NCBI RefSeq assembly: GCF_014930455.1
Contig: NZ_JAAIYO010000001.1
Coordinates: 1,302,001-1,366,000, forward strand
Direction: 5' to 3'
Origin: Corallococcus soli
GTDB taxonomy: Bacteria; Myxococcota; Myxococcia; Myxococcales; Myxococcaceae
Length of the DNA: 64,000 nt
Shown here: one piece after another, positions 23,403 through 38,684 of the stretch
Position numbering within the stretch: the stretch's first letter is position 1
Layout: each line of letters opens with the position of its first letter
Position numbers and translations under genes: made by a program
The notes under the pieces: generated by a model
The model's database searches: none
What the model was told of the DNA's origin: nothing
Seen by the model: the letters and a program-made list of their open reading frames with translations, nothing else

Positions 23403-23431
23403 GTTAAGCGATGCGAGCCCCAAGCTGTCAA
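23403..23431 (-). promoter_or_regulatory. Probable sigma70-type promoter of the cglF-gltG operon
   Basis: On the minus strand a perfect -35 (TTGACA, 23431-23426) is followed after 17 bases by CTTAAC (23408-23403). Transcription would start about 6-7 bases on, at or next to the A of the cglF ATG (23396). This implies a leaderless mRNA and agrees with the missing ribosome-binding site. Confidence 0.5.
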
Positions 23432-23523
23432 CGCACACTCCAGCGCCATGCGCTGACGGTGTCAGGCAGGTGTGGGGGGCAGTCCACCTCATGTGGGGCG
23501 GGATCTCCACGCCGGCCCTTCTT

Positions 23524-23543
23524 CTTTCCAGCATGCTGGAAAG
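23524..23543. promoter_or_regulatory. 20-bp perfect palindrome between cglF and the cytochrome gene
   Basis: Perfect inverted repeat, half-site CTTTCCAGCA with no spacer, in the divergent intergenic region. Part of it (CAGCATGC) recurs at 23578-23585. It lies ~93 bases upstream of the cglF -35 box. It is a candidate operator; it is not followed by a T-run and is not at the end of a gene. Confidence 0.45.
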
Positions 23544-23662
23544 GTCGCGTGGGATTCCCTCCATCGTTTTGCTCCCCCAGCATGCGAGCAGACGTGGTGC
23601 GAAGTCTTCACGGGGCCCGGGGCGGATGGAGGATGCTCGCGGGCCGGAGGTTCGCGCTCGTG

Positions 23663-25972
23663 ATGGGAGGCATTCGTTGGTGGGCAGTGACCGCGGGCGT
23701 GCTCGGGGTCCTGGGGCTCGCGGTCGTGGGGCTGCGGCAGCGCGAGGCCGTGCCGCCGCCACCGCCCGTCGCGGCGCCCGTGCCCGCCGAGCCGCGTCCC
23801 ATCCTGCGGGCCGTGGGCCCGAAGCTGACCAGCAACCAGACCTCGCAGCCGCTCTCCCTCTATGGCGAAGCGCTGGTGCCGGGCTTGAGGCTGGTGCTCG
23901 GCGCGCCCTTTTCGCGGGAGGTGCCGCTCACGGTGGTGGACGCGGGCCATGCGTACGCGAGGCTGCCAGCGGACCTCGCCCTGCCCATGGGCACGTTCCA
24001 GGCGGACGTGCAGCTGTCGCTGGCCGCGAGCACGGGGCCCCGGCCCACGGGCACCGCGCGGCTCACGGTCGTCAACGACGCGGCCTTCCCGGACCTGACG
24101 GCGCTCGCGCTCGCGCCGGATGGACGCACGCTCTTCGTCGCCTCGCCGCCCACGGACACGGTGTTCGCGCTGGACGTGGCGTCGGGCCAGGTGGAGGCGA
24201 TGGCGGTGGGGGATGGCCCGTCCGCGCTGGCGACGTGGAAGGACCGGGGAGGCCGTCCGTGGCTGGGCGTGGCGCACCAGTCGGACGCCGGGCTCTGGCT
24301 GTACGCGCTGGAGGGGCCGGAGCGGAAGCCCCGCGTCGTGCCCACGCCTCCGGGCGTGTGGGGGCTGGAGGTGGATGGCGCGCGCGGCATGGCCTACGTG
24401 GCGGAGCACGTGCGCGACACGGTGCGTGCCGTCGCGCTGGAGGACGGGCGCGAGCGCTGGAGCGCGCCGGTGGATCCGAACCCGCGCGCGCTGGCGCGGT
24501 GGAAGGGCTTCCTGGCGGTGGGCAGCCTCCAGACGGGGCAGGTGGTGCTGCTGCGGCAGGAGGACGGCCGGGAACTGGCGCCGCTGGTGCCGAAGCCGGG
24601 CGTGCCCATCGTCGGAGGGACCACGGAGGCGTACTCCGCGCAGGTGATGGGCGGCAAGGCGCCCCGCGCGCTGGTGGCGAGCGAGCGGCTGGGCCGCGTC
24701 TTCATGGCGAGCCTGGGCCCGAACGTGGGCCCCAACGCCCAGCGCATGGAGGTGAGCGCGAACAGCGGCGTCGCGGTGCTGGACCTGGACCGTCAGCAGG
24801 TGGTGCGGCACCGGGGCTTCGGCGCGGGCGTGACGGAGGGGCTCGCGCTGGATGACCGCTCCGGGCTGCTCTACGCGGCGGACGTGGGCCTGGGGCAGGT
24901 GCGGGTGCTGGACGCGAAGAAGCTGGTGGAGGGGGACGCGGCCGCGCGCGACGCGGTGGTCCAGACGCTGCCCATCCCCGCGCCCGACGACACGCCGCGG
25001 ATCCGTCCGAAGGAGGACCTGGGGACGAAGGGGCGGGCGGGGGACGAACTGCATTCAGGGCCGCGCTCGCTGGTGCTGGCGCCGGACGGACGCACGCTCT
25101 ACGTGCTCAACCGCTTCACGGGCACGGTGGCGGTGGTGGACGTGCGCGAGGCCCGCGCGGGCCGGGCCCGGGTGGTGCGGCAGTGGCCGGTGGTGGACGT
25201 GCGCTCGCGCGAGCAGCGCCGGCTGGGGCAGGTGCTCTACTTCTCGGACGTGGGGCGCACGGGGATGAGCTGTGACGCGTGCCACATCGAGGGACACACC
25301 GGCGGGGTGTTCTTCGAGAAGACGCGGCCCATGCGCATCTACCGCTCGACGACGGCGCTGGGCAGCCGGGACACGCCGCCCTACTTCACCCCGGCGAGCA
25401 CGCGCAGCCTCGCGGAGACGGCGGACACGGTGGGGGGGCGCAACCGCTACCACAACCCGGATCCGCTGCCCTCGGAGGTGGAGGCGCTGGCGCTCTTCAC
25501 GGCGCTGCTGCCCACGCCGCCGAATCCCTACCGCGACGCGGGCGGAGCGCCGCTGGAGACGGTGACGCTGCCGGATGGCAGGTCGGGGCATCCGGCGAAG
25601 GGGAGGGCGCTGTTCGACGGGAAGGCGCGCTGTCAGGCCTGCCACCCCGCGCCACTGTTCACCCTGGATCAGGACCCCTCGACGCGGGGCCAGTACCAGG
25701 ACGTCGGCACGCCCATCGCGCTGCCGCTGCGGCTGGAGCAGCAGCACCTGGTGCCGGGCGCGGCGCCACCGTCGCTGGTGGGCACCTGGGACGTCTGGCC
25801 GCTGCTGACGAGCGCCACGGCGGGCTACGCGGTGCGGGAGGACCGGCTGGTGGTGGACTCCCGCTTCCCGCTGCGCACGCTGCTGGAGACGCCGGGCCTG
25901 AAGCACGGAGAGGCACAGGTCCTCACCCCGGAAGAGCGCGACGACCTGCTCGCCTACCTGCTCACGCTGTGA
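23663..25972 (+). CDS. Beta-propeller / di-haem c-type cytochrome fusion protein
   Basis: 769 residues from ATG 23663 (GTG 23660 adjacent; GGAGG ~10 bases upstream). N-terminal signal anchor (WWAVTAGVLGVLGLAVVGL), then repeated YncE-like beta-propeller blades (FPDLTALALAPDGRTLFVAS, SLVLAPDGRTLYVLNRFTGT), then two haem-c sites, CDACH and CQACH, with the domain order of MauG/cytochrome-peroxidase-like proteins. Probably periplasmic or surface electron transfer or oxidation. Substrate unknown. A paralogue with the same design, but lipid-anchored, is at 51181-53214. Divergent from cglF. Confidence 0.82.
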   Translation: MGGIRWWAVTAGVLGVLGLAVVGLRQREAVPPPPPVAAPVPAEPRPILRAVGPKLTSNQTSQPLSLYGEALVPGLRLVLGAPFSREVPLTVVDAGHAYARLPADLALPMGTFQADVQLSLAASTGPRPTGTARLTVVNDAAFPDLTALALAPDGRTLFVASPPTDTVFALDVASGQVEAMAVGDGPSALATWKDRGGRPWLGVAHQSDAGLWLYALEGPERKPRVVPTPPGVWGLEVDGARGMAYVAEHVRDTVRAVALEDGRERWSAPVDPNPRALARWKGFLAVGSLQTGQVVLLRQEDGRELAPLVPKPGVPIVGGTTEAYSAQVMGGKAPRALVASERLGRVFMASLGPNVGPNAQRMEVSANSGVAVLDLDRQQVVRHRGFGAGVTEGLALDDRSGLLYAADVGLGQVRVLDAKKLVEGDAAARDAVVQTLPIPAPDDTPRIRPKEDLGTKGRAGDELHSGPRSLVLAPDGRTLYVLNRFTGTVAVVDVREARAGRARVVRQWPVVDVRSREQRRLGQVLYFSDVGRTGMSCDACHIEGHTGGVFFEKTRPMRIYRSTTALGSRDTPPYFTPASTRSLAETADTVGGRNRYHNPDPLPSEVEALALFTALLPTPPNPYRDAGGAPLETVTLPDGRSGHPAKGRALFDGKARCQACHPAPLFTLDQDPSTRGQYQDVGTPIALPLRLEQQHLVPGAAPPSLVGTWDVWPLLTSATAGYAVREDRLVVDSRFPLRTLLETPGLKHGEAQVLTPEERDDLLAYLLTL

Positions 25973-26081: not shown

Positions 26082-27044
26082 TCACCGCGCCGGTTCGGAG
26101 TGGAACGGAAGCACCGCCGCGGCCCGGGCCCGCGTGTACAGCGCCTCGGCGATCAGGGCCCACCCGAACGCGGAGAAGGTGAGCACGGCCATCATTCCGC
26201 TGAACAGCCACAGCCCCATCATCACCGCGATGCCCAGGTGCATCCCCAGGGTCATCATCACCCAGAGACCCCGGGTGCGCTGGGGCCAGACGAAGACGAC
26301 GTAGCCCACTTCCACGATCAGCGTGGCCCACGAGGCAAGCTTCACCGCCCACGGCACCGTCGCGAGCCAGGCGAAGTCGAACTGGCCATACTGGGGCTGC
26401 ATCAGCACCTTCCAGATCGCCGTGCCCTCCCGCCAGAGCGGGCCCAGCACCTTCTCCAGCCCCGTGGCGAAGTAGATGATGCACATGTGGATCTGCAACA
26501 CGCGCAGCGCGAGCGTCGCCGCGGAGGACGGGGCGCCGGAGGCCCTTCCCACGCGCACGTCCCAGGAGAAGGCCTCGCCCACCGGCATCACCGCGCAATA
26601 GAACAGGCTGATGTGCGCGAAGGTCTCCACTCCGTAGGCGAAGAAGGGGCCGCTGTTCAGGATCACCGTGTGAGAGATCCACGCCACCACCGCGGACAAC
26701 CGGGAGCGGTAACCCAGCAGCAGCCCGACGAGCGAGATGCTGTAGAGGAGCACGAGGCCCCGGACACAGGCCTCGGGTGACAGCCCCAGCGGCGCCAGCG
26801 CGGCGACCAGTGCACCGAGCCGGGGCACCACGGGGGAGGCCAGGGGTTCGGAGATGCTCCAGGGGACCAGCCCCCGGTCATCCAACAGGACAGGGAGGCT
26901 GTCCGAGATGCTGAACGCCTGCGCGAGCAGCATCAGCGCGACGCCAATGCGCATGATGCCCAGGGGGCCGGCGGAAGAAGGGGCCCCGAAGAACGTGGCC
27001 AGGCGCCGACGCGAGACGGGACGCTGGAGGTGGGGCGTGCTCAT
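26082..27044 (-). CDS. HTTM-domain membrane protein (vitamin K gamma-carboxylase-like)
   Basis: 320 residues with about eight hydrophobic spans. The stretch MRIGVALMLLAQAFSISDSL, the loop LDDRGLVPW and the later HMCIIYFATGLEKVLGPLWREGTAIW are typical of the HTTM domain shared with eukaryotic vitamin-K-dependent gamma-carboxylase. The extracellular domain of true carboxylases is absent. ATG 27044 overlaps the stop of the upstream gene (ATGA), so the two are one unit. Bacterial HTTM proteins have no general assigned function; lipid- or quinone-linked chemistry in the inner membrane is a guess. Confidence 0.82.
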   Translation of the reverse strand: MSTPHLQRPVSRRRLATFFGAPSSAGPLGIMRIGVALMLLAQAFSISDSLPVLLDDRGLVPWSISEPLASPVVPRLGALVAALAPLGLSPEACVRGLVLLYSISLVGLLLGYRSRLSAVVAWISHTVILNSGPFFAYGVETFAHISLFYCAVMPVGEAFSWDVRVGRASGAPSSAATLALRVLQIHMCIIYFATGLEKVLGPLWREGTAIWKVLMQPQYGQFDFAWLATVPWAVKLASWATLIVEVGYVVFVWPQRTRGLWVMMTLGMHLGIAVMMGLWLFSGMMAVLTFSAFGWALIAEALYTRARAAAVLPFHSEPAR

Positions 27045-27580
27045 GGCGCCACCGCCCGCGCATCACTGGGCGTGGAGCGCCGATGCTCGAAGACGGCCCG
27101 GTAGGTTTCCGTCCAGACGAGCGGCGCGCCTTCGCGGTGCGCCTCCATGGTCGGCACTTCGAGCACCTCCATGCGCACGGTGACGGAGCGCGCATCCGCG
27201 TGCCGGCCGAACATCGACGCGGCCCAGGCACGGGCCATCTTGTCCTGGCCGTCATTCAGCCCGAAGCGCAGCAGCATCGCGTAGACGCGCACATTCAACG
27301 CGCTGTTGTCGAACTGGAAGTCGTCCTTCACGCGCTCGCCGTCCGGACGCTCCACGTCGAACGCGACGCGCACCGCCGGACTCACCCCGGGCGCGAAGAA
27401 GCTGAAGCGACTGCCCGCCCCCGTCCAGTGCGCGTAGCCGCGGATCCATGTGTTCACGGCGCTCTCGCCCTGGAAGAGCCGGATGTGCAGGGCGCCACAG
27501 GTCACCAGCAGCAGGTGCAGCAAGGCAAAGCCTGTGACGAACCCGTGCCAGGGCGTCAGGGCGGGAAAAGGCTGTCGCAT
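27041..27580 (-). CDS. Membrane-anchored partner of the HTTM protein
   Basis: 179 residues from ATG 27580 (GGAG six bases upstream). One membrane span near the N-terminus (VTGFALLHLLLVTCGALHI), followed by a soluble domain (WTGAGSRFSFFAPGVSPAVRV; RSVTVRMEVLEVPTMEAHRE). No named family recognised, but the overlap with the HTTM gene shows joint expression and suggests that the two act together. It could be the periplasmic half of the HTTM enzyme. Confidence 0.72.
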   Translation of the reverse strand: MRQPFPALTPWHGFVTGFALLHLLLVTCGALHIRLFQGESAVNTWIRGYAHWTGAGSRFSFFAPGVSPAVRVAFDVERPDGERVKDDFQFDNSALNVRVYAMLLRFGLNDGQDKMARAWAASMFGRHADARSVTVRMEVLEVPTMEAHREGAPLVWTETYRAVFEHRRSTPSDARAVAP

Positions 27581-27696
27581 GGGGGCTCCGGAAAACGGGC
27601 GAAAAGGACGCCAGAGGGGGAAGTCCTCCGGCGTCAAGAGGTGGCGTGGGCGCTGCGAATTTCAGGATGGGACTGGGGCCCTGTGGGGCAGGCGCC

Positions 27697-28149
27697 TTAC
27701 AGCAACACGCCGGTGATGGAGCCCAGGAGGTCCCCGAGCACGGTGCCGAGGATGTCGCCGAGCACGGCGCCGGTGATCGTGCCGGTGACCGTGCCGGTGA
27801 CCGTGCCGGTGGTCGTGCCGGTGGTGCCGCCGGTGACAGCCCCGGACAGGGTGCCGGACGTGTTGCCCGTGATGTTGCCGATGGTGTTGCCGACGGTGTT
27901 GCCCGTCGTGTTGCCGGACGTGTTGCCCGTCGTGTTGCCGCCGCCCGACGTGCTGCCCGACGTGCCGCCCGTGCCGCCCGTGCCGCAGGTGCCGCAGCCG
28001 CCATTGCCGGCGATGCTCACGCTCTTCGACACCATGACGGCTTCCTCCAGGGGAACCGCCGGGCGCGGGTCGTGGGCCATGGCACCCGTCGCCCCCAGCG
28101 CCATCGCGAACATCGCCACCGTGCCGACCATCTTCATGTGCGTCTTCAT
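27697..28149 (-). CDS. Secreted Gly/Asn/Thr tripeptide-repeat protein
   Basis: 150 residues from ATG 28149 with AAGGAG six bases upstream. Signal peptide MKTHMKMVGTVAMFAMALGATGAMA. After a short linker comes CGTCGTGG with two Cys, then an Asn/Thr/Gly array with three-residue period (GNTTGNTSGNTTGNTVGN), passing into TGTVTGTVTGTITGAV and ending in a hydrophobic GAVLGDILGTVLGDLLGS tail. No family recognised. The regular G-x-T spacing suggests a beta-solenoid or fibre-like fold. Same strand as the HTTM pair, 116 bases upstream of it. Confidence 0.7.
   Translation of the reverse strand: MKTHMKMVGTVAMFAMALGATGAMAHDPRPAVPLEEAVMVSKSVSIAGNGGCGTCGTGGTGGTSGSTSGGGNTTGNTSGNTTGNTVGNTIGNITGNTSGTLSGAVTGGTTGTTTGTVTGTVTGTITGAVLGDILGTVLGDLLGSITGVLL
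27700..27975. repeat. Short tandem repeats coding G-x-T array
   Basis: Nine- to eighteen-base imperfect repeats (forms of gtgccggtgacc and gtgttgcccg on the plus strand), producing the three-residue period of the protein encoded on the minus strand. Prone to length change. Confidence 0.7.
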
Positions 28150-28383
28150 GTGCTGCTCCTTGGGAGTGGACAACGAGGGCAATGTTTTTCCTCTCCTGGA
28201 ATTCGGTAGCATCCCGGTAAGGCAGGGATTCTGTCGGGCACCGGGTGCATGGCGGGAGCGCACGCCCATGAGCGCCAGGCAGGCGTGGTTTTTCTCCATC
28301 CGCGCGAAATGTCGGTCCTGGCTGCGTGTCCGCGCGCGGCCTCATGCTGCTGGACGCTTGCGTCACACCGGGGGGCTGGGGTC

Positions 28384-28389
28384 TACAAT
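28384..28389 (+). promoter_or_regulatory. -10 box TACAAT just before the VWA-like gene
   Basis: TACAAT lies seven bases before the ATG at 28397, so transcription would begin at or next to the start codon (leaderless). The best upstream element, TTGCGT at 28358-28363, has a 20-base spacer, longer than usual. No ribosome-binding site is present. Confidence 0.35.
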
Positions 28390-28396
28390 CCAACGG

Positions 28397-30034
28397 ATGC
28401 GTTCCTCCCCCCGGGTCGCCTGGCTCCTCGTTCCAGCGTTGTTGCTGTCGTGCTCCGACGCGGGGCTGTACGCACTCGACCGTCGCTCGGGAGGCTCGCG
28501 CGACCGCGCCAGCTTCGAGGGGGAACTCTGCGTCCCGGAGGCCACCGGGGACGCGTTCCCCGTGAAGGTCATCTTCGCGCTCCAGGGCGGCACCGGCGTG
28601 GAGACGGAGCTGGTGGAGCACGCGGTGGACGGGCTCACGACGCTCACCTCGCGCTTCACCGGCCCGCAGATGCGCTTCGGGCTCGTGGCCTTCCACTCGG
28701 TGGCCACCGGCCTGCAAGGCAGCTTCACCGACGCGGCCACCTTCCAGGCCGTGCTGCCGCGCTACGCCAGCTACCAGCAGCAGGGGCCCATCAGCATCCG
28801 CTCCGCGCTGCGGCTGGCCAAGAGCCTGATGTCCGGCGACATGCAGGCCTCCTGTCGGGGCGAGGTCGCGCGCTCGCGCTACGTCGTGGTGCCCGTCATC
28901 CGCAGCGCGGACGTCAGCTGCGACAACCCGGCGTACAACATCGGCATCGACAGCCGCTGCACCGCGCTGGCGCAGGCCTCCTCCTGCCGCGACAACCCCC
29001 AGGCCCAGCTGGATTGCAACGCGGCGTGCAGCCAGTGTGAGCTGACCGCGGTGGTGGGGGAGCTCAAGGCGCTCGCGGAGCAGTTCGGCGCGGGCGAGGT
29101 CAGCATCCAGCCCATCTACGTGCGCGGCGTCGAACCGGACTCCACCACCCGCCTCCAGGTGGCCGCCATCGCCAACGCGGGCGGCAGCGAGCCGGTGGAG
29201 ACGGACTTCGCCGGTCTGCCCAACGCGCTCGCGCGGCTGGACTACGGCTCGCTCGACAACGCGCTCAAGCTCAAGCGCTTCCTCGCCTTCAACCGCAACG
29301 TCCAGGTGCGCAACGGCCAGATGCTGGCGGACAGCGACGGCGACGGGGTGGGGGACGACGACGAGCGCGCGCTCGGCCTGGACCCCACCGTCTCCGACAC
29401 CGACCAGGATGGCCTCATGGACGGCGTCGAGCTGCGCATGGGCCTGGACCCGCTCGCCGTGGACGTCATCAACGGGTGCAGCGTGGTGCAGGACACCGAC
29501 GGCGACCGGCTCAACGACTGCGAGGAGCGCGTGCTCGGCACCGACCCCTGCGTGGGCGACAGCGACGGTGACGGGCTGCCGGACCTGGTGGAGGCCCTGT
29601 CCCAGACGAACCCGCTCGTCCCGGAGGACCTGCTCGACAGCGACCGCGACGGCCTGTCCAACGTCGCGGAGGTCGAAGCCCACGGCGACCCGCTGAGCGC
29701 AGACCGCGACTTCCACCGGGAGCGCGGCTACGGCTACTCCATCGTCCCGCTGCCCCCCGCCGGCACCAGCAACCGCGCCTGCTACCAGACCCGCGTGGAG
29801 AACGTCTCCCTGGTCCCCACCCTGGAGCGCCCCCACCCGTTCTTCCCCGGCGAGTTCATCCCCGCCGGCACCAACGAGGTCTACCTCTACCTCCAGGTGG
29901 GCCGGGACAATGATCCGCGCGGCGCGGGCGTGGGGTCTCTCTTCATCCAGGAGATCCAGTACGACGCCGACACCGGACGCACCCCCGCCGGCATCGTTCC
30001 CCTCACCTCCGACGACTTCATCGTCGGGACCTGA
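28397..30034 (+). CDS. VWA-like lipoprotein lacking MIDAS, with DxDxDG Ca-binding repeats
   Basis: 545 residues. Lipobox LLLSC (Cys19). Residues ~45-300 align with the VWA domains of the two lipoproteins downstream (VPEATGDAFPVKVIFAL), but where they have DxSxS this one has ALQGGTG, so the metal-ion-dependent adhesion site is lost. A Cys-rich insertion (SCRDNPQAQLDCNAACSQCE) follows. Residues ~312-428 carry five DxDxDGxxD motifs (DSDGDGVGDDDE, DTDQDGLMDGVE), as in thrombospondin type 3/EF-hand-like Ca sites, then a C-terminal beta domain shared with the paralogues. Surface-anchored; role unknown. Confidence 0.8.
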   Translation: MRSSPRVAWLLVPALLLSCSDAGLYALDRRSGGSRDRASFEGELCVPEATGDAFPVKVIFALQGGTGVETELVEHAVDGLTTLTSRFTGPQMRFGLVAFHSVATGLQGSFTDAATFQAVLPRYASYQQQGPISIRSALRLAKSLMSGDMQASCRGEVARSRYVVVPVIRSADVSCDNPAYNIGIDSRCTALAQASSCRDNPQAQLDCNAACSQCELTAVVGELKALAEQFGAGEVSIQPIYVRGVEPDSTTRLQVAAIANAGGSEPVETDFAGLPNALARLDYGSLDNALKLKRFLAFNRNVQVRNGQMLADSDGDGVGDDDERALGLDPTVSDTDQDGLMDGVELRMGLDPLAVDVINGCSVVQDTDGDRLNDCEERVLGTDPCVGDSDGDGLPDLVEALSQTNPLVPEDLLDSDRDGLSNVAEVEAHGDPLSADRDFHRERGYGYSIVPLPPAGTSNRACYQTRVENVSLVPTLERPHPFFPGEFIPAGTNEVYLYLQVGRDNDPRGAGVGSLFIQEIQYDADTGRTPAGIVPLTSDDFIVGT

Positions 30035-30048
30035 GTCCCCGCCGTGAC

Positions 30049-30064
30049 GTGGGGTTTCCCCCAC
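30049..30064. terminator. GC hairpin after first VWA-like gene
   Basis: Stem GTGGGG/CCCCAC with a four-base loop (TTTC), fifteen bases after the stop at 30034. Short, and without a T-run. Confidence 0.4.
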
Positions 30065-30204
30065 AGTCTCAATGGGGTGTGCCCCCCACACCCTGCCTGT
30101 AGCACTCCCTCACGAACCGCCAACCTCTTGATTTTCCTGGCACCTAGAGCAGACAGGCAGACGGATCGCCTCTTGCTAGGAGAGGGGTTGTGAAAGGAGT
30201 CACC

Positions 30205-31527
30205 ATGACTATCCCTCGCTTTGCCCCGCTGCTGGCGCTCGGCGCCTTCCTGGTGCTGTCCCCCAGCACCGTGCAGGCCCAGGATCAAAACCCGGACAAC
30301 CCGGAGTGCCTCGGAGATGAGTGCGGTCGCCCGAAGGAGGTGGGTGGCGGCTGTGGCTGTGGCTGTGGGTGTTCCGTCTGGGTCGCGTACACGGACGACG
30401 GCAAGACGCTGTCGTACACGGACGACGCGGACGGCGACGGCAAGGCGGACGACAAGGACAACTGCCCGTTCTCGTCCAACCGCGACCAGACGGACGGCGA
30501 CGGCGACCTGGCCGGTGACTCCTGCGACAACTGCGCGGCGGTCTCCAACACCACGCAGCTGGACACGGACGGCGACGGCATCGGCGATGCGTGCGACCCG
30601 GACGACGACAACGACGGCAAGCTGGACGGCGAGGACAACTGCCCCTCCGTGCCCAACGCCACCCAGGCGGACAACGACGGCGACGGCCTTGGCGACGTCT
30701 GCGACGACGACGACGACAACGACGGGCACAAGGACGGCGCGGACAACTGCCCGCTCGTTGAAAACCGGATCCAGACGGAGATGCCCGCGGACGTGAGCCT
30801 GTGCCGCGTGGACGCGGACGGCGACAACGTCTCCGACAACCTGGACAACTGCCCCGGCCTGTCCAACCCGGACCAGAAGGACTCGGACGCGGACGGCATC
30901 GGTGATGGCTGCGACGCGGACATCGACAACGACTCGGTGCTGAACGCGCAGGACAACTGCCCCGCGTTCGCCAACCGCGACCAGGCGGACGACGACGGCG
31001 ACGGCATCGGTGACGCGTGCGACACGCGCTACTGCGTGGTGCTCAACAAGGACCGCCCCAACGACTGCCTGGATCCGAAGGCGCCCTTCAGCGTGGGCAC
31101 CGGCGGCGTGCTGAGCGTGGAGAAGACGGGCCTGGCCGTGCGGCCTCCGCTGTTCGCCAACCGCAACGGCGCGGCCATCGAGTACACCTGGACGGTGGTG
31201 AAGCGTCCCTCCGGCTCCACCGCGGTGGTGGAGAACCCCAAGGGCGCCGTCACCTACAGCCGCCACTGGGAGTACCAGTACGTGGACGGCAGCGTGCCCA
31301 ACTTCCAGCCGGACAAGGAAGGTGAGTACGAGCTGCAGGTGTCCACGCGCCTGGCCTTCGCGGACCGCGTGTTCCCCGACCAGCGCGCCTCCGTGTCCAG
31401 CCTGTTCCTGAAGGTGGGCCAGGACGAGTCCGGCAGCGGCTGCACGTCGCTCCCCGCGGGAGGCAGTGTCGCCGCCCTGGGTGCGGGCGTGCTCGGCCTG
31501 CTGCTGCGCCGCCGTCGGAAGGCGTAA
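30205..31527 (+). CDS. Thrombospondin type 3 repeat protein with MYXO-CTERM-like tail
   Basis: 440 residues; ATG 30205 has AAAGGAG seven bases upstream. Signal peptide to ~residue 25, a Cys/Gly cluster ([13 protein letters not shown]), then about seven true TSP3 units with DxDxDGxxDxxDNC ([33 protein letters not shown]), residues ~73-275, predicted to bind many Ca ions. A beta-domain follows ([20 protein letters not shown]). The C-terminus [10 protein letters not shown], hydrophobic span, RRRRKA is the MYXO-CTERM sorting pattern, so it should be surface-anchored after processing. It sits between VWA paralogues. Confidence 0.85.
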
Positions 31528-31562
31528 GGTTTCCCCCCCCAATGCCCGGAGGTCCGCATCGC

Positions 31563-33551
31563 ATGCGCCGTCAGCTCGTGGTTCCGCTTCTTGCGACCGG
31601 CCTCCTGGCCCTGGTGGGTGGGCTGTCCTGCTCCGACTCGCTCCTGGAGCCGCGCGCCCAGGAGCAGTCGCAGTTGGATGACAAGCTGACGCTCACCGGC
31701 CGGGTGTGTACGCGCCCGGCCAACCCCACCGGCTTCCCGGTGAAGGTGGTGCTCGTCGTCGACGAGTCCGGCAGCATGTGCGTGTCGGATCCTCCGGGCT
31801 CGCAGGAGGGCAGCGGCTTCTGCGAGCGCGCGGAGGTGCAGGCCATCATCCCGCCCGGCGTCACGGAGCCGGCGCGGGTGCGCGCGCTGAAGAACCTGGT
31901 GGCGGGGTTCAAGCGCATCAACGACCGCAGGGAAGGCAACATCAGCATCGCCATCGCCCCGTTCGAGACGAACGTGAAGAACACCTGGCCGCCCGCGGCC
32001 ACGGGTGACCGCTTCGCGCCTCCGGGGAACATCAACGGCTACATCGAAGGGCTCCAGTCCCAGCTGGGCAAGGGCACCGACTACCAGGGCGCGCTCAGCT
32101 ACGCGTACAGCATCATCGCCAGCGACATCGCCGCGGTGTCCCAGGCGACGCCGGAGCTGCTGCCGCGCACGCGCTACGTCGTCGTGTTCCTCACCGACGG
32201 CACGCCGTACCCGCGCTGCTCCGGCAACGACGACCTGTCCGTGTACGCCGGGCCGGACAGCCCGGACCTCACCTGGCGCGACTCCATCTCCAGCTTCTGC
32301 AACGCCACCAGCACCACCGACGCCATCACCGGCTTCGAGGTGGGCACCGACCGCAACCAGAACTACCAGCTCTTCAGCTACGTGCGCCGGCTGATGGAGC
32401 TGAAGACGCAGTACAACGTGGGCGACGTGCGCATGCACACGGTGCTGCTCTTCAACGAGGAAGCGGTGCGCGCCTGCGGCCCCATCTGCCAGGACATCTA
32501 CGGCACCTACCCGGGCGTCCCGGAGGCGCAGTACCCGGCGGCGGCGAAGAAGATCGCCTCCTACCTGCTCAAGCGCTTCGCGGAGATGGGCAACGGCGTG
32601 TATCAGGAGTTCAGCGACACGGCGGAGATCTCCGAGCTGGGCCTGGGCGCGCTGGACTATTCCTCCTTCGCGTCGCCCAACGTGATGAAGACGCTGATGG
32701 TGGAGCCGCTCAGCTCCGCGCCCGGCGACGACGGCCGCGAGCTGGACAGCGACGGCGACGGCGTGCCGGACTCCCTGGACAACAGCTTCCAGCTCAAGAC
32801 GAACCCCTTCACGCTGGACAGCGACGGCGACTGCCTGGGCGACGGCTTCGAGTACCGCCGCCAGGACCAGGGCTTCCGTCCGGGCAACGACCTGGACGCG
32901 CGCGGCTGCGACCCGCAGTCCCCGCTGACGCCCGGCTGCGTGTGCCGCGACACGGACGGTGACGGGCTGTCGCAGTTCGCGGAGGACTACCTCAAGACGC
33001 GCCAGGGCATCGTGGACAGCGACGGCGACGGCGCGCCGGACGGCCTGGAGGCCAAGTACGGCCTCAACCCGCTGCAGTCCAGCGTGTCGGGCCTGGACAC
33101 GGACGGCGACGGCGTCCCGGACGACGTGGAGCTGAAGGCGGGCAGCGACCCCACCCGGCGCGACCGGCCCTTCCACGACAAGTACGGCATCCAGTACGAG
33201 GTGACGAAGGTGGCCGGCGGCGACGACCTGGATGGCGTCTGCTACGACTTCACCGTGTCCAACCTCCAGATGGTGACGCCGCCGGACCGCTCGGGCGTGA
33301 AGCAGGGCTACAACCTGTTCAAGGTGTGGTTCGCGGAGGCGCCGGAGAGCGGCGTCGCGACCGACTACGGCGTCTGGCGCACCGGGTGCGCCTGGGCGCA
33401 GTACGCGCCGCCCAGCGTGCGCGTGCCGCTGGGGCCGGACCTGGCGATGGAGGACCGGAACTTCATCCGTCCGGACCTGCTGGTGGATCCCTGGAGGGCC
33501 CAGGGCAGTTGCGTCGGCGTGTCGCCGTCGCAGGGGGGCGCGTCGCCGTGA
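31563..33551 (+). CDS. VWA-domain lipoprotein with DxDxDG Ca-binding repeats
   Basis: 662 residues from ATG 31563 (GGAGG ten bases upstream). Lipobox GGLSC (Cys23). The VWA domain runs from ~residue 58 (FPVKVVLVVDESGSM; MIDAS DxSxS at 67-71) to ~385 and includes the strand YVVVFLTDGTPYPRC. Five DxDxDG motifs follow (~394-526: DSDGDGVPDSLDN, DTDGDGVPDDVE), then a C-terminal beta-domain. An intact MIDAS suggests metal-dependent ligand binding at the cell surface, as proposed for the VWA gliding adhesin CglB. Its stop overlaps the next start as GTGA. Confidence 0.85.
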   Translation: MRRQLVVPLLATGLLALVGGLSCSDSLLEPRAQEQSQLDDKLTLTGRVCTRPANPTGFPVKVVLVVDESGSMCVSDPPGSQEGSGFCERAEVQAIIPPGVTEPARVRALKNLVAGFKRINDRREGNISIAIAPFETNVKNTWPPAATGDRFAPPGNINGYIEGLQSQLGKGTDYQGALSYAYSIIASDIAAVSQATPELLPRTRYVVVFLTDGTPYPRCSGNDDLSVYAGPDSPDLTWRDSISSFCNATSTTDAITGFEVGTDRNQNYQLFSYVRRLMELKTQYNVGDVRMHTVLLFNEEAVRACGPICQDIYGTYPGVPEAQYPAAAKKIASYLLKRFAEMGNGVYQEFSDTAEISELGLGALDYSSFASPNVMKTLMVEPLSSAPGDDGRELDSDGDGVPDSLDNSFQLKTNPFTLDSDGDCLGDGFEYRRQDQGFRPGNDLDARGCDPQSPLTPGCVCRDTDGDGLSQFAEDYLKTRQGIVDSDGDGAPDGLEAKYGLNPLQSSVSGLDTDGDGVPDDVELKAGSDPTRRDRPFHDKYGIQYEVTKVAGGDDLDGVCYDFTVSNLQMVTPPDRSGVKQGYNLFKVWFAEAPESGVATDYGVWRTGCAWAQYAPPSVRVPLGPDLAMEDRNFIRPDLLVDPWRAQGSCVGVSPSQGGASP

Positions 33552-35338
33552 GCCGCACCGGACGTCTGTGGGCGCTGAGCCTGCTGGGGCTGGCCGTGGT
33601 GGTGGCCTGCACCGATTCCTACCTCTACGACCCGCGCCGGGACACCGACGTGCCGGCGGACCGCGCGGTGGCGCTGGACGGGCGCTTCTGCACGCTGGGC
33701 GCCAATGAGGTGCTCCGGCCCATCAAGATCATCGTCGCCATGGACGCCAGCCAGTCCATGCGCGTGAGCGACCCGGATGGCAGCCGCGCCACCGCGCTGG
33801 TGGAGCTGATTGAGAGCCTCCCGCAGGACGACGAGGTGTCCATCGCGGTGATGCTGTTCGCCGGCAGCACCACGGCGTTCCTCACGCAGAACCCGGGCCC
33901 CCCGCTGGAGGACGGCTTCGTGCAGCTGTCGCTCTTGGACGCGACGGCGAAGGCGAAGCTCACCGAACAGCTGCTCACCTTCCGCAACACCGACACCTCT
34001 CCGAACCGGGACTCGACGGACTTCGTCAAGCCGCTGTCGGACATCTACTCGCTCATCAACACGGACATCGCGCGGGCGCGGTTGCAGCCCGACGGCAACG
34101 AGGCGCTGGCGCAGGCGCGCTACTCCGTCATCTTCCTGTCGGACGGCAAGCCCACGAACAACCAGGACGACGAGCTCATCCGCGGTGACGCGGTGGTGCG
34201 CATCCGGCAGCTGCGGGACCTGGTGGAGGACGTGCGCTTCAACACCGTGCACGTCTTCAACCCCACGCAGCCGGTGCCGTCGGTGTGCGACCTGGTGGCG
34301 GAGGACGGCGGCTTCGGGGACGGCGGCTGCCCGCTGCTCATCATCAACCAGAACGCGGACCGGCTGGAGAAGATGGCGGGCCTGGGCGGCGGCAACTTCC
34401 GCGACTTCCGCAACAACGAGCCCATCAACTTCCTCAACTTCCAGTTCGGCCAGGTGCGCCGCGCCTTCATCCTGAAGGAGCTGGTCGCCTCCAACTTCTC
34501 CGCCCCCGCCGGCAGCCCGCTGGACGAGGCGGATACGGACGGCGACGGCCTCACCGACGCGCGCGAGGCCCAGCTGGGCACCAACCCCAACCTGCGCGAC
34601 ACGGACGGCGACGGCTTCAGCGACGGCGTGGAGGTCTACTTCCGCGACCGGGGCGTGCAGTTCGACCCGAACCAGGAAGTGCAGCCGGACGGCGGCGGCC
34701 TGGACAAGGGCTGTCCCCCCGCGCTGCGCGGCACGGACACGGACTGTGACGGCCTGCTGGACTGCGACGAGCAGTTCATCGGCACCAACGCCACGCTGCA
34801 GGACAGCGACAGCGACGGCGTGCCGGACGGCATGGAGTGGCGGGGCGGCACCCAGGGCGCGAGCAACGACCTGGACGAGGACCCCGACACCGACGGGCTG
34901 ACCAACCGCAACGAGGTGCGCATGCACATGCGGCCGCTCCAGGTGGACACGGCGAACCTGGCGTCGGATGCGTACCGCTACAGCATGGAGGCGGACGGCC
35001 CCGTGGATGCGGACGGCCGCCAGTGCTACCGCTTCCGCGTGGACAACGTGCTGCTCGCGCCCACGCTGGCCCTCATCGCGGACGGCGGCGTGGACGGTGG
35101 CGTGGACGCCGGCACGGTGCAGCGCGGCGCGGGCTACAACGACATCTACCTCTCCGTGTCCATGCTGCCCGCGGATGACCCGACCGCGCGCACGCTGGTG
35201 CGCACCTTCCGCGTGGACTCCGTGCGCTACCCGGTGGGCGGCATCAAGTCGCCCCCGGACGGCATCATCCGCGTGAACCCCGAGGACTTCGTGGAGGGCT
35301 GCCCCGGCGTCCTCCCTACCCTCGCGCCCATCCCCTGA
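33548..35338 (+). CDS. VWA-domain lipoprotein with DxDxDG Ca-binding repeats (second copy)
   Basis: 596 residues from GTG 33548, overlapping the previous stop by four bases. Lipobox VVAC (Cys21). VWA with intact MIDAS (IIVAMDASQSM; DxSxS at 66-70) and the later YSVIFLSDGKPTNN. Five Ca-type motifs (~328-456: DTDGDGLTDARE, DTDGDGFSDGVE, DSDSDGVPDGME), then the shared C-terminal domain (YRFRVDNVLLAPTL). Clearly a paralogue of 31563-33551, and the overlap indicates they are made together, possibly as a hetero-complex. Confidence 0.85.
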   Translation: MSRTGRLWALSLLGLAVVVACTDSYLYDPRRDTDVPADRAVALDGRFCTLGANEVLRPIKIIVAMDASQSMRVSDPDGSRATALVELIESLPQDDEVSIAVMLFAGSTTAFLTQNPGPPLEDGFVQLSLLDATAKAKLTEQLLTFRNTDTSPNRDSTDFVKPLSDIYSLINTDIARARLQPDGNEALAQARYSVIFLSDGKPTNNQDDELIRGDAVVRIRQLRDLVEDVRFNTVHVFNPTQPVPSVCDLVAEDGGFGDGGCPLLIINQNADRLEKMAGLGGGNFRDFRNNEPINFLNFQFGQVRRAFILKELVASNFSAPAGSPLDEADTDGDGLTDAREAQLGTNPNLRDTDGDGFSDGVEVYFRDRGVQFDPNQEVQPDGGGLDKGCPPALRGTDTDCDGLLDCDEQFIGTNATLQDSDSDGVPDGMEWRGGTQGASNDLDEDPDTDGLTNRNEVRMHMRPLQVDTANLASDAYRYSMEADGPVDADGRQCYRFRVDNVLLAPTLALIADGGVDGGVDAGTVQRGAGYNDIYLSVSMLPADDPTARTLVRTFRVDSVRYPVGGIKSPPDGIIRVNPEDFVEGCPGVLPTLAPIP

Positions 35339-35358: not shown

Positions 35359-37662
35359 ATGCGCCTTCGTTCCCGACTGCTCCCGCTCGCGCTCCTCCTC
35401 CTGGCCGCCTGTTCCTCGGGCGGAGAGGACACGCCGGATGCCGGCACCGGCGTCGTGGAGGACCTCTGCAACAGCCGCGACGAGGCCCTGACGAACGCCG
35501 ACTGTGAATTGAAGCCCGGCGTGGCCCTGGAGCGCTTCCTGGCGCTCACCGGGGACGTGAAAGCGGGGGACGAGGACTGGTACAGCATCCGCATTCCCGC
35601 CAGCGCCAACGCGCGCACGCTGGTGCACATCACCGGCGTGTACCTGGCCTCCAGCACCCCGGTGAACCTGTCCGTCACCGTGCAGGAGAAGGACAAGGAC
35701 ACCGCGCTGGTGGGCAAGTCGGACCAGCACGGCGCGGGCGCGCCCCGGCCGGTGGACATCATCCTGCCGTACGGCACCCCGGACACGCAGCTCATCGTGG
35801 TGGTGCGCGACGCGCCGACCAACCCCGCGCGCCCCGCCTTCGACGCGCGCAGTCCCTACCGGCTCACCGTGGAGCTCATCGAGAACCCGGACGCCAACGA
35901 GCCCAACGACGTCTCGCCCACGCCCATCGCGCTCGCGACGGAGGGGGCCGCGCAGGTGGGCACCGCGAACGGCTACCTCGCGACGGACGACGACGTGGAC
36001 CGCTTCAGCTTCCCGCTGACGGTGGGCAAGGTGGCCTACGTGCGCGTCACCGCGCCGGACCAGGGCTTCGCGCCCAACTACCGCCTGTCCTATGAGCTGC
36101 TGCGGCCCGGCACCTCCGACAAGGAGGCCGAGGGCAACGTGCTGCCCAAGGTGCACCCGGGCCAGCTCGCCACCGCGCGCAAGGTGAAGCTCGCCGGGAC
36201 GTGGACGCTGGTGGTGAAGGGCTACCGCCCGGCCAACGAGCCGCCCCCCGCGGGCGACCTGCGCCAGCCCTATGAAGTGGAGGTGCGCGTCCTGGACGAG
36301 GCGGATCCGCAGGACCAGTCCGGGGACAACGACGCCTACGCCCGGGCCTTCTCGCGCGACCTCGTGGGCTCGCCCGGCACGTCCACGTCCTTCACCGGCC
36401 GGCTGGGCTACGTGTCCGACCGCGACTGGTACGCGCTGCGCGTGCCCGCGTACAACAAGCCCAGCGTGCTGCGCTACCGGCTGGTGTCGCTGGGCACGGG
36501 GGGCCGCTTCGCGCCGCTGCCGCTGCCGCTGGGCCAGCTGGCGGACCGGCAGGTGCTGGTGTTCACCACCGTGGGCGCGGCGCCCACGACGGAGCTGCGC
36601 GCCACCTGCTCCAACGACGCCACCGTGTGTCCCCGCGACGTGCGCGAGCACCCGGATGCGCCGTCGCTGGTGCAGACCTACTGCAACAACGCGGAGGCGG
36701 TGCTGTGCCTCCAGTCGCTGCGGGAGGAGGGTGACCCGGCGCGCTTCCCCAACCTGGGCAACTTCCAGGGCGCGCTGCCGGTGCCGGCGCACACCGCGAC
36801 CGCGACGTACCACTTCGTGGTGCAGGACGACGGCACCAACTGGGCGGACGACCGCGACTACCGGCTGGAGGTGAGCTGGGAGGACGACGACGCTGAAGAA
36901 GTGGCCGCCTACAGCGGAAGCACGGAGCAGGAGCGCCCCAAGACGCTCAACGGCGTGGGCGCGGGCAACCTGCCGACGAGCGACGCCACCTTCGAGGCGA
37001 AGGGCCAGCTGTCCTACGGCCACGGCCGGCTGCGCGACAACGACCGCGCCACGGGCCGGGGCGTGCGCGGCCCCACGGACTACGACGCGGTGCCGTCCGA
37101 CACGGACACGTTCGCGTACACGCTCCCCAGCCGCACGGCGCCGGAGGACGCGGCGTGGCTGGTGCAGTGGGAGGTGGACAACCTGCCCGACGGTGGCACC
37201 CCGCATGGGCTGGCGCTGGACTTGACCTTCTGTGACGGCAGCCCCTCCACCGACGGCGGCGTCGGCCCGTGCAGGCCGGTGTCCACCACCAACTCGGGCG
37301 GGGCGCTGACGCTCGCGTACAGCGGGAGCGTGATGCGCGCCTGGCACACCACGGCCAGCACGCCGCTCTCCAGCTACCAGGCGCAGTACCAGCTGGAGAA
37401 GACGGCCAGCACCACGCGCGTCACGGTGACGCCCTACGCGTGTGCCTGTCTGGAGCGGCGCTTCATCCAGGGCGGCACGCTCAAGGTGGCGGTGAGCGCC
37501 ACCGAGCGCGGCGACTACGGGCGCGTGGGCTACACGCTGCGCACCGGCTGGGGTGACTACCCGCGCAGCTACACGGCGCCGGACGGTGGCAGCCCCACCC
37601 AGTGCCCGGCGCCCACGCAGGACGCGGGGACGTGGGTGGGCGGTTGCCAGTTCACCCGCTAG
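35359..37662 (+). CDS. Large lipoprotein with PPC-like beta domains
   Basis: 767 residues. Lipobox LLAAC (Cys18). At least three segments look like bacterial pre-peptidase C-terminal (PPC) domains, with D-x-D-W-Y/F patterns: GDEDWYSIRIP, DDVDRFSFPL and SDRDWYALRVP. The C-terminal third has several Cys (DLTFCDGS, YACACLERRF, GGCQFTR). PPC domains usually accompany secreted enzymes, but no catalytic domain is visible here. It starts 20 bases after the second VWA lipoprotein, so it probably belongs to the same transcription unit. Confidence 0.78.
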   Translation: MRLRSRLLPLALLLLAACSSGGEDTPDAGTGVVEDLCNSRDEALTNADCELKPGVALERFLALTGDVKAGDEDWYSIRIPASANARTLVHITGVYLASSTPVNLSVTVQEKDKDTALVGKSDQHGAGAPRPVDIILPYGTPDTQLIVVVRDAPTNPARPAFDARSPYRLTVELIENPDANEPNDVSPTPIALATEGAAQVGTANGYLATDDDVDRFSFPLTVGKVAYVRVTAPDQGFAPNYRLSYELLRPGTSDKEAEGNVLPKVHPGQLATARKVKLAGTWTLVVKGYRPANEPPPAGDLRQPYEVEVRVLDEADPQDQSGDNDAYARAFSRDLVGSPGTSTSFTGRLGYVSDRDWYALRVPAYNKPSVLRYRLVSLGTGGRFAPLPLPLGQLADRQVLVFTTVGAAPTTELRATCSNDATVCPRDVREHPDAPSLVQTYCNNAEAVLCLQSLREEGDPARFPNLGNFQGALPVPAHTATATYHFVVQDDGTNWADDRDYRLEVSWEDDDAEEVAAYSGSTEQERPKTLNGVGAGNLPTSDATFEAKGQLSYGHGRLRDNDRATGRGVRGPTDYDAVPSDTDTFAYTLPSRTAPEDAAWLVQWEVDNLPDGGTPHGLALDLTFCDGSPSTDGGVGPCRPVSTTNSGGALTLAYSGSVMRAWHTTASTPLSSYQAQYQLEKTASTTRVTVTPYACACLERRFIQGGTLKVAVSATERGDYGRVGYTLRTGWGDYPRSYTAPDGGSPTQCPAPTQDAGTWVGGCQFTR

Positions 37663-38186: not shown

Positions 38187-38684
38187 ATGTTTGGCGTTGT
38201 AACACGGAGTGCCCGCGTGCTGACGGGGGCGTTGCTGCTGATGCTGATGGGCGGTTGCGGCGGCTCGCGCGAGGACTTCATCGGCGCGCGCGTGCTGGAT
38301 GTCTGCAAGGCGTCCTGGCCCGTGTGCAACCAGTTCGCGGGCTGCATCCTGGGGCCGGAGAGCTACTCCGAGGGCCGCTTCCCCGGGCGCGGGCAGGTCA
38401 TCGTCCGGGTGCCGGAGGCATCCACCATCAAGGTGAGCTTCTTCCTGGAGGAGGTGACGGCGGCGGGCGAGGAGACGGCCGTCACCGTGCACGAGGAGGG
38501 CTGCCGGGCGCGTCAGCGACAGGCCGCCACGGGCCGCGCGGCGTTGGACCAGATGGAGAAGTTCGGCGAGTTCACCCGCCAGGTGGACGTCACCGGCGTG
38601 GGCGACCACCTGGTGGAGTTCGACTCCGACATGCAGGCGCGCTACGTGGTGAAGGTGGACGTGACGCCGCTGCGCATCCAGTAG
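38187..38684 (+). CDS. Hypothetical lipoprotein
   Basis: 165 residues. Signal peptide with lipobox LMGGC. Mature protein has four Cys (VCKASWPVC, FAGCILG, EEGCRARQ) and beta-strand pattern (RGQVIVRVPEASTIKVSFFL). No family recognised. Its start is 30 bases from the divergent lipoprotein's start, so the two promoters must overlap. Convergent with the GMC oxidoreductase. Confidence 0.7.
   Translation: MFGVVTRSARVLTGALLLMLMGGCGGSREDFIGARVLDVCKASWPVCNQFAGCILGPESYSEGRFPGRGQVIVRVPEASTIKVSFFLEEVTAAGEETAVTVHEEGCRARQRQAATGRAALDQMEKFGEFTRQVDVTGVGDHLVEFDSDMQARYVVKVDVTPLRIQ

Follow-up and report, generated by a model that had tools for sequence, protein, structure and literature searches.

mtsC of Corallococcus soli: first gene of a conserved myxobacterial thrombospondin-like operon with a predicted role in cell-cell cohesion

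The closest described counterpart of the gene considered here is the myxobacterial thrombospondin-like (mts) gene cluster, for which Zhang et al. 2007 (J Bacteriol 189:7937) is cited in the available part of PMC6593220, there as a locus that may take part in constructing the matrix of the cell surface. In the corresponding part of PMC10544341 the same 2007 paper is cited in connection with an S-motility locus that has a link to salt tolerance, and in that of PMC11980579 a gene spelled 'MstC' (sic) is cited for cell-cell cohesion; from the NCBIfam name, 'MstC' and MtsC would be one and the same protein. Literature searches gave no paper on MtsC itself among the matches listed, and the lead to the cluster came by way of these citations. 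Related in another respect are proteins with a MYXO-CTERM tail, whose cysteine, according to the portion of PMC11980579 at hand, is predicted to be lipidated, with cleavage after the cysteine by MrtX and export of the protein by the type II system. TraA of the TraA/TraB outer membrane exchange receptor is, like MtsC, a MYXO-CTERM surface protein, and TraB shares TSP3 repeats with MtsC (PMC6372800, as far as that source was available).

The stretch of DNA analysed, here called the window, comprises 64,000 nucleotides of the C. soli genome. A gene on its forward strand at 30205..31527 encodes a protein of 440 amino acids, with an ATG start codon at 30205, GAAAGGAG ahead of it at 30192-30199, and a stop codon at 31525-31527. 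The product scores 607 bits against NCBIfam NF047638 (MtsC, "cell-cell cohesion MYXO-CTERM protein"; cut-off 350), the alignment running full length from residues 9-438 to model positions 4-428 of 428, and the adjoining gene (31542-33551), after a gap of 14 bp, scores 1280 bits against NF047639 (MtsD; cut-off 800). Judged by these matches the gene is mtsC, an orthologue within the known cohesion locus, apparently the one of Zhang et al. 2007; architecture and neighbour are those of the mts cluster represented by the two family models, the present copy being of Corallococcus type. Added to the known locus are a VWA (von Willebrand factor A) partner without the MIDAS metal site, a sigma54-like element, a phylum-wide gene order and a block deletion, none of which was met among the literature matches listed, in the parts of those sources available; the metal-site-less partner, the sigma54-like promoter of Myxococcaceae-type copies and the natural block deletions in one genus can be put to the test.

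MtsC opens with a hydrophobic, signal-peptide-like N-terminus and a cysteine-rich stretch (CGCGCGC), followed by TSP3 repeats; a PKD/Ig-like domain comes next, and the tail is of MYXO-CTERM type. Six stretches are matched by Pfam TSP_3 (PF02412; E 8.7e-45), profile comparison with thrombospondin-2 (1yo8) gives E 1.8e-77, and six DNC-type units were counted by eye at about residues 73-276. The preliminary description had thus rightly named a true TSP3-repeat protein and, for the flanking VWA genes, shorter repeats, in which Pfam finds TSP3_bac (PF18884); its "about seven" cysteine-containing units are there as repeats, with the number slightly high. The 14 cysteines from C87 to C288 are retained in all 54 aligned rows (52 distinct), and of 21 cysteines in the protein 20 form an even set before the tail, C413 being the odd one. 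In an AlphaFold model (49 aligned sequences; mean pLDDT 78, pTM 0.45) the TSP3 rod and a beta-sandwich at about residues 277-405, the PKD/Ig-like domain, are confident, and residues 1-71 and 408-428 are not. The rod aligns with thrombospondin-2 (2rhp) over 186 residues at Z 12.2, 48% identity and rmsd 6.4. The sandwich is matched by an AAVR domain (6jcs, Z 9.2, 92 residues, rmsd 2.6), by Caf1M (3dos, Z 9.1) and by PKD-titled entries (2yrl, Z 8.9; 2e7m, Z 8.6), and since many Ig-like domains match at similar Z, "PKD/Ig-like" stands for a fold class only.

The thrombospondin-2/COMP signature domain (1yo8, 2rhp, 3fby) likewise contains a TSP3 calcium wire, and its cysteines are spaced as in MtsC. 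In metazoan thrombospondins, however, TSP3 is followed by the TSP C-terminal lectin-like domain. Neither this nor any other thrombospondin domain was found in MtsC by Pfam; in its place the model shows the PKD/Ig-like sandwich, and the protein ends in the MYXO-CTERM-type tail. MtsC may offer a bacterial case of thrombospondin-type calcium rods serving cell-cell contact in a social bacterium.

The tail follows the MYXO-CTERM pattern of an invariant cysteine, a membrane helix and an Arg-rich end, with C413 (retained in 51 of the 54 aligned rows), a helix predicted at 422-439 with low pLDDT, and RRRR. It scores 18.3 bits against TIGR03901, just below the cut-off of 20, and in an alignment of 49 MtsC sequences the matches at E 0.05 number 25 for TIGR03901 and 19 for TIGR03382. 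MrtX (451 bits, cut-off 180) and GspD of type II secretion (669 bits) are encoded in the same genome. The C-terminal sorting tail proposed in the preliminary description is supported. Its contrast of a sorting anchor with a lipid anchor is doubtful, as lipidation of the MYXO-CTERM cysteine is predicted to precede cleavage (PMC11980579, the part available), so that the contrast concerns the route more than the final anchor. MtsC would be delivered by Sec to the inner membrane, be lipidated at its tail cysteine, lose the tail to the myxosortase MrtX and be placed on the outer surface by the type II secretion system.

All neighbours with which mtsC is conserved lie on the same strand. Upstream is VWA1 (28397..30034), whose product is a lipoprotein (lipobox LLLSC) with bacterial TSP3 repeats and a VWA fold from which the MIDAS residues are missing; downstream are mtsD (31542..33551) and VWA3 (33548..35338), which overlaps it by 4 bases, both for VWA lipoproteins with an intact MIDAS and bacterial TSP3 repeats. 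LP767 (35359..37662) specifies a conserved 767-aa lipoprotein of no assigned family, with no PHROGs match and a weak PPC signal in only 3 of 25 orthologues, and LPx (38187..38684; start chosen by eye), beyond a gap of about 0.5 kb, a small conserved lipoprotein. The VWA domain of VWA1 was undetected by Pfam. Its model (pLDDT 84) matches 8s05 at Z 19.3 and the integrin alpha2 I domain at Z 18.6 (183 aligned, rmsd 2.5), and its profile aligns nearly full length with those of VWA3 (2.2e-53) and MtsD (6.2e-54) by hhalign; as modelled, the domain is a real VWA fold. MIDAS (DxSxS...T...D) is absent from VWA1 in all 34 rows covering the site (32 distinct) and retained by MtsD in 40 of 40 rows (38 distinct), as it is in the VWA3 rows except L174 (Thr for the first Ser) and L169_1, which falls with VWA1 in the VWA tree. 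Two VWA1 relatives located downstream of LP767, in L169 and L239, were grouped with VWA1 in that tree (SH-aLRT 99); the former still reads DTSVS and the latter DVTAE, which indicates that the metal site was probably lost within the VWA1 lineage. MtsD, VWA1 and VWA3 also match the gliding lipoprotein CglD (NF033765), around model positions 200-325 of 1124, but at only 25-42 bits (MtsD 41.8) against a cut-off of 400.

In Myxococcaceae the order around mtsC is VWA1-mtsC-mtsD-VWA3-LP767-LPx. A spacer of 158-197 bp separates VWA1 from mtsC in all operon copies read with both frames whole; mtsC and mtsD are mostly 10-16 bp apart in nearer relatives and further in others, and mtsD usually overlaps VWA3 by 4 bases. 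One copy (L170, genome G091) has mtsC and mtsD 2416 bp apart, the sole wide gap among the operon copies read. Places of mtsC and mtsD were entered by hand, leaving aside MtsC rows covering only repeats (such as G045, G082, G097 and G139-G142) and eight MtsD rows (extra copies or partial), and mtsC was found upstream of mtsD on the same strand within 3 kb at 74 of 86 mtsD places. The 12 others comprise three true separations (G137, G138, G139), seven places starting within 500 bases of a contig start, and the places in G132 and G133; with its second MtsC piece excluded, G039 was counted as non-adjacent although the gap is 158 bp. At no fewer than 64 of 82 VWA1 places, at least, mtsC follows within 400 bases, at 170-230 bases by match coordinates.

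In this window one VWA gene indeed precedes mtsC and the other two follow it, an arrangement that had been read as the insertion, between duplicated VWA genes, of a surface gene with a different type of anchor that forms a coat. Such a history would suit the three genomes of families f7/f8 (G137, G138, G139) in which VWA1 stands directly before mtsD and mtsC lies elsewhere, the displaced mtsC of G139 (L168) being without the GG-N10-GC promoter-like element discussed below. The displaced mtsC of G137 (L172), however, keeps this element 50 nt upstream, as if the gene had moved out together with its promoter, and the MYXO-CTERM tail is itself predicted to be lipidated in the part of PMC11980579 seen. 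Synteny places mtsC first in an order mtsC-mtsD-VWA-LP767 with no VWA1 ahead in 14 genomes (13 distant stretches and L169) from 12 families beyond those with VWA1 upstream. Insertion of mtsC is rejected on this order, and the account built on it is considered very improbable; an oddity noticed in raw sequence is thereby tied to a named cohesion locus with the insertion idea corrected, the observation itself confirmed and its interpretation about half right.

In 13 of 20 distant stretches, two VWA genes and an LP767 relative lie downstream of mtsC in the same orientation. Of the remaining seven, L231 ends at a contig edge just past mtsC and six hold a solitary mtsC, four of these being second copies in genomes that also carry the operon. 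By its sequence, mtsC belongs to a conserved operon with two MIDAS-bearing VWA-TSP3 lipoprotein genes and a fourth lipoprotein gene. The VWA tree (76 rows, midpoint root, short search, no bootstrap) was built without L249, L234 at 17688, L020 and L022, the last two being the contigs of L247 and L237, respectively. In it the VWA3 sequences of Myxococcaceae group separately from the distant ones, and for distant genomes the name "VWA3" accordingly denotes the operon's second VWA gene. As the tree is midpoint-rooted, we infer the simplest history rather than read it from the branching: mtsC-mtsD-VWA-LP767 would be old, the upstream place of VWA1 would have arisen in the Myxococcaceae lineage together with its closest relatives, and in f7/f8 mtsC would have left. 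VWA1, which lies downstream in two genomes, is the changeable member of the block.

Upstream of mtsC, at 30163..30178 on the forward strand, GGATCGCCTCTTGCTA forms a sigma54-like GG-N10-GC element, a conserved motif of presumed promoter function, and GGATCGNNYCTTGCTA is conserved across 22 aligned VWA1-mtsC spacers, in which much of the flanking sequence is not. The general form of the element, GG-N8-TTGC[TA], lies 39-58 nt ahead of the start codon in 31 of the 34 mtsC copies that stand in an operon, mostly close relatives and so not independent; the misses are L020, L026 and L169, and the count is without L013, L018 and L021 (element present), L168 (absent) and L185 (no upstream sequence). 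The same form occurs before none of 129 neighbouring genes (VWA1 0/29, mtsD 0/34, VWA3 0/34, LP767 0/32), in 0.39% of random 120-nt windows, and in a single one of 15 rows lying apart from mtsD, that of the displaced mtsC in G137. It is absent in all 14 distinct distant operon copies scored (L026, L169, L232, L234, L237, L239-L244, L246, L247 and L248, the three operon misses included; L250 and L236 left aside) and is thus a feature of the operon of Myxococcaceae type and its closest relatives. The -24 half reads GGATCG in most copies, that of the textbook sigma54 promoter being GGCAC. The mtsC element is probably a sigma54-type promoter, at which mtsC transcription would start on its own. As a regulon marker the 16-base pattern failed: it gave one genome match with at most one mismatch and its backwards control two, so that the match count shows nothing and no regulon can be drawn.

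VWA1 is preceded by a different conserved block, CTTGCG ... GGTCTACAAT (28357..28396, forward strand), with a putative promoter role; its TACAAT ends 7 nt before the VWA1 start codon, a position that suggests a leaderless message. Independent expression of mtsC, which the preliminary description had held to speak against a shared coat, is thus indicated in one respect, since mtsC has an element of its own unlike that of VWA1, but not in the other, since this element heads an operon with the other two VWA genes. Conserved GC-rich inverted repeats follow the VWA1 stop codon on the forward strand (30049..30093) and are terminator- or attenuator-like with no T-run. Their GTGGGG/CCCCAC-type repeats might allow alternative pairings; a fold z-score of only -1.57 led to their rejection as a strong RNA structure, and Rfam gave no element in the window at gathering score.

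As a surface protein of MYXO-CTERM type that occurs in social bacteria together with VWA partners, MtsC could be thought of as a polymorphic kin-recognition receptor like TraA, with specificity set by a variable domain. Among eight Corallococcus-type copies, however, no such polymorphism or hypervariable domain is seen: the segments of MtsC each show a mean pairwise identity of 88-98%, the three VWA domains one of 90-96%, and MtsC, unlike TraA/TraB, has no PA14 or OmpA match in Pfam. We regard this role as highly unlikely. A conserved block of VWA/TSP3 lipoproteins with a surface role, as the preliminary description supposed, agrees with the citations in PMC11980579 (cohesion) and PMC6593220 (surface matrix), in the parts available. 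A structural matrix or coat component, with the cohesion loss of mutants secondary, would accord with the matrix-building suggested in PMC6593220 and with TSP3-PKD rods and VWA lipoproteins that could scaffold polysaccharide; against a merely structural part stand the family name and the statement of cell-cell cohesion in PMC11980579, and the ligand-binding MIDAS kept by MtsD and VWA3. It is a possible reading, though a doubtful one.

We favour, with good though incomplete confidence, the reading of mtsC as the first gene of the mts cohesion operon, encoding an exported, calcium-stiffened protein under a promoter of its own. Calcium would stiffen the TSP3 rod, and MtsC and the VWA lipoproteins would hold neighbouring cells together; predicted calcium-dependent cohesion fits the anatomy of MtsC, and for VWA3, LP767 and VWA1 a part in adhesion is suggested by linkage only. 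Far more tentatively, the mts operon could be a phylum-wide calcium adhesion complex, ancestrally two MIDAS VWA lipoproteins and a TSP3-PKD rod; in Myxococcaceae and their relatives the metal-less VWA1 would have joined it from an upstream position, in a structural or inhibitory part, and mtsC would have been placed under sigma54, allowing cohesion to be switched on with development.

Of 145 genomes of the order, 81 have MtsC and 80 have MtsD above the cut-off, 80 have VWA1 (E 1e-40) and 92 have LP767 (E 1e-20); in a sample of the phylum that overlaps the 145, MtsC exceeds its cut-off in 104 of 195 genomes. One genus (g3) keeps the operon in two genomes (G045, G048), and four others (G043, G044, G046, G047) gave no MtsC, MtsD or VWA1 match at the E-values used. 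In G044 (L221) a flank gene 82% identical to the VWA1 flank in L154 is followed by the VWA1-type promoter, an ATG and then LP767, and in G047 (L223) the flank gene (84%) and VWA1-type promoter are followed by LP767 remnants; from these remains the VWA1-mtsC-mtsD-VWA3 cassette can be lost as a block. L220 and L222 keep LP767 without the VWA1 flank gene or promoter. MtsC paralogues with no mtsD in the stretch read were seen in L175-L184, L227, L233, L235, L236, L238, L245 and L249, two of them in tandem in L178, and those of L177 and L183 have no MYXO-CTERM tail in the frame read.

Further upstream in the window, between a cytochrome-like gene and VWA1, three reverse-strand genes at 26082-28299 encode a 320-aa membrane-type protein, a 198-aa protein and a Gly/Thr/Asn-rich repeat protein; they recur in seven of eight other Corallococcus-type loci read (not L016) and had no match in the loci of other genera read. 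At 23411-25972 on the forward strand, an 853-aa protein with two CxxCH motifs is encoded, as it is upstream of VWA1 in many Myxococcaceae loci, and it might belong to the mts neighbourhood.
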